Shown piece by piece: positions 43,492 through 59,155 of a stretch of 64,000 nucleotides of DNA. Position numbers and translations under genes: made by a program. Each line of letters begins with the position of its first letter. The stretch's first letter is position 1. Source of the stretch: an uncultured Planctomycetota bacterium (lineage in GTDB: Bacteria > Planctomycetota > Brocadiia > CAIUPP01); the NCBI GenBank assembly GCA_903901045.1, contig CAIUPP010000026.1:1-64000 (forward strand), written 5' to 3'. The notes beneath the pieces are model-generated. The model searched no databases. It saw only the letters and a program-made list of their open reading frames with translations, and had not been told where the DNA came from.

Positions 43492-43643
43492 AGAAGCTGT
43501 TTTGCTCTGTTGAAACCATCGTGACGGCGTGTCGCTCTTCGTGTGGTCGAGGTGGGGACACAAAACTTTCCTTTGGAAAGTATTGTGTCCCCACCGGCCC
43601 GGCCTGCCAACCGGGATGATTTCAACAGAGCAAAACAGCTTCT
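43492..43643. mobile_element. Nested double palindrome (MITE-like) at the 3' end of the GGDEF gene
   Basis: Outer arms: 24 bp at 43492-43515 are perfectly inverted at 43620-43643 (29 of 30 if extended inward). Inner hairpin 43551-43595: GGTGGGGACACAAAACTTTC and its complement, with one A/A mismatch and a 3-nt loop. The TAG of the HDOD-GGDEF gene overlaps the outer right arm. The inner hairpin is like the terminal sequences I associate with REP-associated tyrosine transposases, but no transposase is present. The rest of the 312-bp gap (43330-43491) holds no gene. Confidence 0.8.
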
Positions 43644-45485: not shown

Positions 45486-45528
45486 CTGGGGACACAAAAC
45501 TTTGCTCCGCAAAGTATTGTGTCCCCAG
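45486..45528. repeat. Solo copy of the GGGGACACAAAACTTT hairpin
   Basis: CTGGGGACACAAAACTTTGC, tcc loop, and its complement ending GTGTCCCCAG. Relative to 43551-43595 the outer GT/AC pairs have become CT/AG and an inner C-G pair has become G-C, so stems are preserved by paired changes. Confidence 0.8.
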
Positions 45529-45582: not shown

Positions 45583-45611
45583 ATGACTTTTGCCATGCGA
45601 TGCCGTATAAT
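45583..45611 (+). promoter_or_regulatory. Promoter for ruvB
   Basis: ATGACT (45583-45588), 17-bp spacer, perfect TATAAT (45606-45611). Gives a leader of about 120 nt containing the two-hairpin element. Confidence 0.65.
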
Positions 45612-45653
45612 CCGATCAGTTGCAGAGAAGCGCGCCACAGACCACACAGAGTC

Positions 45654-45734
45654 GCGAGCACATTAACCGCGCGAACGACTGCGCGGTTGGCGCATTCGTA
45701 TGAACTGCCCAACGGCGGGTAGTTCATTGGGAGA
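45654..45734 (+). promoter_or_regulatory. Two-hairpin repeated element, copy 1 (ruvB leader)
   Basis: Hairpin 1: AACCGCGC-gaacgact-GCGCGGTT (45665-45688). Hairpin 2: ATGAACTGCCC-aacggc-GGGTAGTTCAT (45700-45727), one G-U pair. GGGAG then starts 2 nt later and the ruvB ATG is at 45741. Copy 2 lies before fabG. Confidence 0.75.
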
Positions 45735-45740
45735 AACGTC

Positions 45741-46769
45741 ATGGGTGATCCGAAGGCCGAAGACATCCTTCTGCGCGAGGGGCAGCCGGAGGACTCCACG
45801 CTCGACCAGACCTTGCGGCCGAAGCGCTTCGACGACTTCATCGGGCAGGAGCGGGTCAAAGAGAACCTGCTCATCTACATTAAGGCCGCGCGCGGGCGCA
45901 AAGAGCCGCTGGACCACATCCTCTTCAGCGGCCCTCCCGGACTCGGCAAGACCACCCTGGCCTGCATCATCGCCCACGAGATGGGGGCGGAACTGAAATC
46001 CACCTCCGGCCCCGCAATCGAAAAGGCGGGGGATCTGGCGGGTCTGCTCACGAAACTGCGCGAGGGGGATGTGCTGTTCATCGACGAGATTCACCGCATC
46101 AGCGCCACCGTCGAGGAGTACCTCTACTCGGCGATGGAGGATTATGTCATCGACATCATCCTGGACCAGGGGCCGTCCGCGCGCTCGGTGCGCATCCCGC
46201 TGCCGCGTTTCACGCTGGTTGGCTCCACCACGCGCGAAGGGCTCCTCACCGCGCCGTTCCGGGGGCGATTCGGCGTCGTCGAGCGGCTGGACTTCTATCC
46301 CTGGCAGGACCTCTTCCAGATCGCGCTCAACAGCGCCAAGGCGCTGAACATTCCCATCGAGGAGCCGGGGGCGGAGGAAATCGCCAAACGCTCGCGCGGC
46401 ACCCCGCGGCTGGTCAACCGTTTCCTGCGGCGGCTGCGCGACATGGCGCAGGTGCTGGCCAAGGGGGTCATTACCAAGTCGGTCGCCGAGAGCGGCCTGG
46501 ACCGGCTGGGGGTGGACCAGCGCGGCCTCGGCGCGATGGACCGGCGCATCATCGAAACCATCCTGCGCATGCGCGGCCAGCCGGTCGGACTCAAGACGAT
46601 CGCCGTGACGGTGGGGGAGGAGGAGGACACCATCGAGGATGTGTACGAGCCGTACCTGATCCAGGCCGGCTACCTCGACAAGACCCCGCGCGGGCGGATT
46701 GCCACCGAGGCGGCGATCCGCGATTACGGGAATGACCTTGGCGGGCGGAAAGCGAAGAGCTTGTTCTGA
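45741..46769 (+). CDS. ruvB: Holliday junction branch migration motor RuvB
   Basis: 342 residues. Complete RuvB: LRPKRFDDFIGQ, Walker A FSGPPGLGKTTLACIIAHEM, Walker B LFIDEIHR, sensor 1 LVGSTTREGLLTAPFRGRFG with the arginine finger, sensor 2 SRGTPRLVNRFLRRLRD, and the C-terminal winged helix (RGLGAMDRRIIETI, EPYLIQAGYLDKTPRGR). Hexameric AAA+ motor acting with RuvA. ATG 45741 has GGGAG 7 nt upstream, within the repeated two-hairpin leader, so translation of ruvB might respond to that structure. Confidence 0.96.
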   Translation: MGDPKAEDILLREGQPEDSTLDQTLRPKRFDDFIGQERVKENLLIYIKAARGRKEPLDHILFSGPPGLGKTTLACIIAHEMGAELKSTSGPAIEKAGDLAGLLTKLREGDVLFIDEIHRISATVEEYLYSAMEDYVIDIILDQGPSARSVRIPLPRFTLVGSTTREGLLTAPFRGRFGVVERLDFYPWQDLFQIALNSAKALNIPIEEPGAEEIAKRSRGTPRLVNRFLRRLRDMAQVLAKGVITKSVAESGLDRLGVDQRGLGAMDRRIIETILRMRGQPVGLKTIAVTVGEEEDTIEDVYEPYLIQAGYLDKTPRGRIATEAAIRDYGNDLGGRKAKSLF

Positions 46770-58303: not shown

Positions 58304-58310
58304 CAACCAT

Positions 58311-58390
58311 GTGCGAGCAGTTAGCCGCGCGAACGACTGCGCGGCTGGTGCAAGAGTATGGACTTCCCAACGGCGGGCAGTTCATTAGGA
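58311..58390 (+). promoter_or_regulatory. Two-hairpin repeated element, copy 2 (upstream of fabG)
   Basis: Hairpin 1: AGCCGCGC-gaacgact-GCGCGGCT (58323-58346). Relative to copy 1, an A-T pair has become G-C. Hairpin 2: ATGGACTTCCC-aacggc-GGGCAGTTCAT (58358-58385), one wobble and one mismatch. AGGAGGAGG follows at once. No promoter hexamers stand out between fabD and the element. Confidence 0.75.
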
Positions 58391-58402
58391 GGAGGATACA
58401 AG

Positions 58403-59155
58403 ATGCCCAGAAATCCGACCCCGTTGAAGGGGCAAACCGCCGTCATTACCGGCGGGGCCCGTGGCATCGGCAAGATCACCGCGCTGACGCTGGCCGGCGC
58501 CGGGGCCAACTGCGCGCTGCTGGACGTCATGGATGAAGTGAAGGCCACCGCCGCGGAAGTCGCCGCCCTGGGCGTCCGCGCCGAGGGATACGTCGCCGAC
58601 GTGACCAATTCGGAGCAGATCACCGAGCTGATGAAGACGATCAACGAGACCTTCGGCGCGATCGACATCCTGGTGAACAACGCCGGGATCACGCGCGACA
58701 ACCTGCTGCTGCGGATGACCGACGAGGAGTGGGACAAGGTGATCGCCATCAACCTGCGCGGCGCCTTCGTCTGCACGCGCGCCGCCGCCCGCTACATGCT
58801 GAAGCAGCAGCGCGGACGGATGATCAACATCGCTTCCGTCGTCGGGGTGATCGGAAACCCCGGGCAGTGCAACTACTCCGCCAGCAAGGCGGGGATGATC
58901 GGCCTGACCAAGTCCGCGGCGCGCGAACTGGCCAGCCGCAGTATCACGGTGAACGCTATCGCGCCCGGCTATGTCAAGACGGCGATGACCGACAAGCTGC
59001 CGGAAAAGGCGAAAGAGGCGATCATGGGCATGATTCCGTTGCGGCGTCTGAGCGAGCCGCAGGACATCGCCAACGCCGTGCTGTTCCTGGCGAGCGAGGA
59101 ATCGAGCTACATCACGGGCCACGTCCTCCATGTGGACGGTGGCATGGGTATGTAA
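58403..59155 (+). CDS. fabG: 3-oxoacyl-ACP reductase (FabG)
   Basis: 250 residues from ATG 58403 (AGGAGGAGG upstream). Short-chain dehydrogenase: cofactor loop TGGARGIGK, LVNNAGITRDNL with the structural Asn, catalytic Ser in NIASVVGVIG, Tyr and Lys in YSASKAG, and C-terminal LHVDGGMGM. NADPH-dependent reduction of 3-ketoacyl-ACP. 24 bp before acpP. Confidence 0.96.
   Translation: MPRNPTPLKGQTAVITGGARGIGKITALTLAGAGANCALLDVMDEVKATAAEVAALGVRAEGYVADVTNSEQITELMKTINETFGAIDILVNNAGITRDNLLLRMTDEEWDKVIAINLRGAFVCTRAAARYMLKQQRGRMINIASVVGVIGNPGQCNYSASKAGMIGLTKSAARELASRSITVNAIAPGYVKTAMTDKLPEKAKEAIMGMIPLRRLSEPQDIANAVLFLASEESSYITGHVLHVDGGMGM

Follow-up and report, generated by a model that had tools for sequence, protein, structure and literature searches.

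A two-hairpin repeat upstream of ruvB and fabG in a Planctomycetota genome, probably a low-copy dispersed palindrome

A two-hairpin element located upstream of ruvB in an uncultured Planctomycetota bacterium is most probably (about 0.8) a low-copy, species-restricted dispersed palindromic repeat of about 83 bp, similar to REP/BIME elements or to a tiny MITE. This reading is based on the occurrence of many copies in one genome, all of them intergenic and in both orientations, on the presence of single-module and composite copies, on empty syntenic sites in a same-family relative, and on stems that stay paired. Among the dispersed bacterial palindromes, it is best classified as a new low-copy member, and it demonstrates that covariation, fixed loops and a ribosome-site position, which resemble the marks of a conserved RNA leader, can also be displayed by a DNA palindrome of this kind.

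Two copies of the element in the window

The window, i.e., the whole stretch of 64,000 nucleotides that was analysed, contains two copies of the repeat, each of ~83 nt by direct reading (Table 1). An element of about 80 nt with two stems in front of ruvB and a second copy in front of fabG had been proposed by a sequence-only reading of this DNA, and both were recovered with slightly shifted limits. Each copy consists of two equally oriented hairpin modules, both with an AACGRC loop, which are separated by a linker of 9 nt. The stems of both hairpins comprise 11 pairs when G-U pairs are included, and the Watson-Crick core of hairpin 1 is 8 bp long, in agreement with the 8-bp and 11-bp stems described before. 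The hairpin 1 core, CCGCGC/GCGCGG, is lengthened by A-T or G-C plus U-G pairs, whereas the hairpin 2 stem is formed by ATGAACTGCC(C)/(G)GGCAGTTCAT, with one mismatch in the fabG copy. The loops GAACGACT and AACGGC show no difference between the two copies, and one stem pair is exchanged (A45666-T45687 in the ruvB copy versus G58324-C58345 in the fabG copy); both features had been pointed out by the same reading. The folding z-scores of the two copies are -3.95 and -2.40. Given the candidate promoter upstream of ruvB, the ruvB copy probably lies within the 5' UTR of this gene.

Table 1. Coordinates of the repeat copies and adjacent features in the window
Feature	Position	Strand	Details
Two-hairpin repeat before ruvB	45651..45733	+	Conserved 5' flank GTCGCGAGCACAT, 3' GGGAG; 103.3 bits (covariance model)
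Hairpin 1, ruvB copy	45663..45690	+	Hexaloop AACGAC; fold and covariation
Hairpin 2, ruvB copy	45700..45727	+	Hexaloop AACGGC; fold and covariation
ruvB	45741..46769	+	342 aa; 81% identical to RuvB of Planctomycetota bacterium UR.bin147
Promoter-like ATGACT-17-TATAAT	45583..45611	+	10/12, consensus match only
Two-hairpin repeat filling the fabD-fabG gap	58310..58391	+	90.2 bits (covariance model)
Hairpin 1, fabG copy	58321..58348	+	Hexaloop AACGAC; fold and covariation
Hairpin 2, fabG copy	58358..58385	+	Hexaloop AACGGC; fold and covariation
Shine-Dalgarno AGGAGGAG of fabG	58387..58394	+	Shared with the element-free fabD-fabG gap of UR.bin147
fabG, downstream gene	58403..59155	+	ATG at 58403

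Copies across the genome

A covariance model was built from seven copies, which match it by construction. In the 4.77-Mb genome, this model gave eight strong matches (68–103 bits, E below 1e-16) along with weaker partial ones. BLAST with one copy as the query found nine places in the genome, so the repeat is not a product of chance. In total, there are eight full or nearly full copies and about four single-hairpin or partial ones; about ten of these, including antisense and single-hairpin copies, are additional to the pair noticed originally. Hairpin 1 alone is present in the C88 and C130 copies, and hairpin 2 alone in the C103 (before murE) and C79 (near mutY) copies, where the C79 and C130 matches have weak scores and were taken in after inspection.

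The gene context was obtained from home-made gene calls in an 821-kb sample (687 genes, 85% coding), in which all twelve copies are intergenic. Sense copies were found near the start codons of ruvB (7 nt), fabG (11 nt), a glycosyltransferase gene (5 nt) and murE (9 nt). Antisense copies are located near groEL (16 nt, in the groES-groEL gap), a gene on C11 whose product starts with MESVVLKRSK (10 nt before it), a gene on C130 (39 nt) and in the mutY region. The C70, C23 and C88 copies are far from starts, and the C136 copy is at a contig edge. The neighbouring genes share no theme, and those identified are not guanidine genes.

The copies follow no orientation rule, the close ones being four sense and four antisense. 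An arrangement in either orientation without covariation had been named in advance as the mark of a simple dispersed DNA repeat; the first part of this description applies here, whereas covariation is present (see below). A role as a leader, or as a regulator of the riboswitch type acting on the gene downstream, is not supported, given the occurrence of copies in both orientations, before unrelated genes and in some cases far from starts, the empty syntenic sites of a same-family genome and the absence of copies from the other genomes searched.

Three copies show further features in their surroundings or structure. The C70 copy has a long hairpin (GGGGAAAGGGGGTCAGGCAACTTTTC..GAAAAGCAGCCCGACCCCTTTTCCCC) immediately 5' of it (L002 1436-1495). 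The C23 copy is followed about 110 nt downstream by an RNA of the nhaA-I family, a lithium riboswitch class (L007 1686-1739; 59.2 bits), and the next called gene, at least ~240 nt further on, is prepilin-like and not a cation transporter. In the C123 copy (L046 1550-1600), the apex of hairpin 2 is swapped for a different hairpin (GGTGCGCATGGCGCACC), with the ATGAAC/GTTCAT stem base retained.

Proximity to start codons and empty sites in relatives

Six of the twelve copies lie at most 16 nt from a start codon, compared with 7.5% of intergenic positions (binomial p about 1e-4). This excess over random intergenic placement is real and not fully explained; the check proposed earlier, whether copies always sit next to start codons, places this half at starts and some of the others far away from them. 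NGGAG is found at the 3' border of the ruvB, fabG, C70, groEL and murE copies, from which we infer, as the simplest account of the start proximity, insertion just 5' of GGAG. Start-codon proximity could reflect function too.

Planctomycetota bacterium UR.bin147, the closest relative with a name (RuvB 81% identical), was taken as a member of the same family and has ruvB, tgt, plsX, fabH, fabD and fabG on one contig. Its fabD-fabG gap of 42 nt possesses no element and has AAGGAGGAG before the start codon; the gap here is 99 nt long, with the element directly before AGGAGGAG, a Shine-Dalgarno sequence that is kept in UR.bin147. The empty gap of the relative together with the retained AGGAGGAG indicates a recent insertion directly 5' of a pre-existing ribosome site. 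The possibility that the 3' GGAG is a ribosome site carried by the element itself is weakened by the presence of AGGAGGAG in this empty site. The ruvB leader of UR.bin147 has no element, and its sequence is unrelated.

The covariance-model search that had been recommended succeeded within the genome, with eight strong matches beyond chance, but no copy was found by this model or by BLAST across 57 genomes belonging to the same class; weak model matches in these relatives (E 0.015–0.07) were inspected in part and judged to be chance. A strict pattern, which diverged relatives could escape, found no copy in 84,980 species genomes or in viral contigs. Among the genomes searched, the repeat is in all likelihood restricted to one species.

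These observations can be combined in a mechanism in which the repeat would spread as hairpin DNA, probably single-stranded, and would be mobilised in trans by a Y1-type or similar transposase, with positions immediately 5' of GGAG, as in Shine-Dalgarno sequences, being tolerated or preferred. Transcribed copies would contribute two stable hairpins to a 5' UTR or an intercistronic region, with a possible modest effect on the stability or translation of the mRNA. The genome encodes five Y1 transposases above the cut-off; none of the five genes is flanked by the two-hairpin element, as a RAYT/IS200 parent would be, and the mobiliser was not found. If the preference for positions 5' of GGAG is real, the repeat represents a clean case of repeated insertion at ribosome sites without their removal, by which hairpins are added to the leaders of housekeeping genes.

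Covariation and conservation

In an alignment of nine rows of copies, 93% of the cells pair, and changes on both sides were observed at three pair positions (seven cells). The number of paired cells, the number of cells with both partners changed and the covariation score were higher than in any of the 500 column shuffles or any slid control; no excess over shuffles was seen for the counts of changed pairs or of pair types. The pairwise difference between copies is 0.13–0.19 in stems and loops and 0.37–0.43 in flanks and linker, and, with values of 0.13–0.14, the loops are conserved as much as the stems and far more than the flanks. The covariation above shuffles and the low stem and loop difference demonstrate that pairing and loops are constrained. 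A transposase that recognises hairpin DNA could impose this constraint, and so could an RNA role; covariation alone cannot separate the two. The earlier proposal that pairing matters is thus upheld by the covariation, but a pairing constraint is also true of REP/MITE DNA palindromes and does not single out an RNA. The equal conservation of loops and stems counts against a mobile repeat, since simple decay predicts otherwise, whereas the conservation that extends into the unpaired flanks (GYGCGAGCACATTA) is what recent copying would be expected to give.

The three pairs that are broken in the antisense groEL copy are without exception A-C when read on the element strand, which corresponds to G-U on the transcribed strand, and close sense copies gained G-U pairs. 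This pattern, which comprises very few events, hints that pairing is kept in the transcript; a transcription-linked mutation bias would give the same wobble pattern. An element of mobile origin may have been domesticated and kept in transcripts as an mRNA stabiliser, attenuator or translation spacer at operon junctions, like some REP/BIME elements. We consider this scenario unlikely, because the lack of orientation bias, the existence of degraded copies and the usual location of REPs downstream of genes (PMC3733652) weigh against the positions in the fabD-fabG, groES-groEL and ftsI-murE gaps, the start-codon enrichment, the stable folds and the wobble pattern on the transcript strand, all of which speak in its favour.

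Comparison with known RNA families

No Rfam family matches the element at the gathering score, which agrees with its initial description as lying outside the known families; searched alone, it has no convincing match at E up to 10 either. The ANTAR-target RNAs are defined by two hairpins with A1 and G4 in their hexaloops and a linker of 2–25 nt, and they have been described at ribosome sites (PMC3369931, PMC8164766). The AACGRC loops provide A1 and G4 in both hairpins, the 9-nt linker satisfies this RNA-side definition, and several copies are at ribosome sites, where four sense copies abut them and equally many copies are antisense. Moreover, dual ANNGNN hairpins (stem ≥7, within 30 nt) occur in the 821-kb sample only in the two-hairpin repeat family; outside this family, there are two AACGRC loops, both in single hairpins. 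An ANTAR-target-like RNA, possibly spread as a repeat, would be bound at its hexaloop pair (A1, G4) by a regulator that controls downstream termination or translation. However, no ANTAR domain was found in the genome, which is 94% complete (best 14.4 bits versus a cut-off of 27.3), or in the 57 relatives, whereas five of five clostridia, used as a positive control, gave 50–65 bits. In addition, reverse-complement copies lose the A1 loop and the target genes have no common theme, which makes this explanation improbable. Membership in the ANTAR-target class was rejected on this domain search, and the element further differs from it in its antisense copies and DNA-level copying. There is a slim chance that a mobile palindrome with a dual-hexaloop RNA site lands by preference directly 5' of Shine-Dalgarno sequences and places ruvB, fabG, murE and other, unrelated genes under one loop-binding regulator; if true, a transposable riboregulator would have assembled a regulon in this way.

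A guanidine-II (mini-ykkC)-like riboswitch, in which two ACGR-loop hairpins kiss via their CG dinucleotides, shares with the element two such hairpins upstream of ribosome sites, in the same overall layout (PMC5486947). The ACGR loop of guanidine-II is closed by a G-C pair, and its G stacks on guanidinium (PMC5486947), whereas here ACGR is flanked by A...C. Membership was rejected on this closing position and on the RF01068 model, which matches no copy in the genome; with adjacent genes of other functions among those identified, a guanidine-II-like riboswitch is highly improbable. The apex of hairpin 2, CC-AACGGC-GG, is also present in one hairpin of the narK RNA (RF03032), but the match is partial and at chance level (11 bits versus a gathering score of 43.2), and matches to narK RNA in relatives are at chance level only.

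Comparison with dispersed palindromes

The genome is rich in dispersed palindromes, as seen from a GTCATTGCGAG-tagged set and from a GGGGACACAAAACTTT...AAAGTATTGTGTCCCC family. The fifteen GTCATTGCGAG-tagged palindromes in the sample are all intergenic and differ strongly in their inner stems. They fit the class of CGTC-tagged REPs, which begin with CGTC-AT, have loops of 4–5 nt and possess no dedicated transposase (Di Nocera et al. 2013, PMC3733652). In two copies, the two-hairpin repeat is fused with CGTCATTGCGAG-type repeats: at C88 it is continuous with a GTCATTGCGAG tag, and at C130 it borders directly on the reverse complement of one, these being two of the fifteen tags. Only these two join the GTCATTGCGAG tag, while the others have GYTGCGAG or none (GTAG/CGTC checked). 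A literature text search for the CATTGCGAG repeat gave nothing usable.

The window contains two near-perfect palindromes of the GGGGACACAAAACTTT...AAAGTATTGTGTCCCC family, one at 43554-43592 and one at 45488-45526. In the sample, 27 of 28 pattern matches to this family are intergenic, where a single palindrome often matches both strands, and sequence related to its ends flanks a Y1 transposase gene (L073). The GTCATTGCGAGGAG...GCAATCTT elements (C23:149444, C120:3558, C120:4432, C123:87213 and others) have inner stems that are almost wholly different and still complementary; these elements are hypervariable and always palindromic.

Similar to an IS200/IS605-derived MITE or a RAYT-mobilised REP, the two-hairpin repeat has conserved flanks, a pair of equally oriented, subterminal-like hairpins and Y1 transposases in its genome, but no parent element with its ends was found there. 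It differs from REP/BIME elements in its greater length, in having two same-orientation hairpins and in its hexaloops, which replace the shorter loops of CGTC REPs. REPs often number over 100 copies, whereas the repeat has ~12, most of them without a clear CGTC/GTAG tag and often upstream of starts. At the same time, it is short, intergenic, dispersed in both orientations and has G-T pairs in its stems, as REP/BIME elements including CGTC REPs do. The missing flanking RAYT gene does not count against kinship with the CGTC REPs, since these also lack a dedicated transposase at their flanks, and their families, like this one, are confined to one species.
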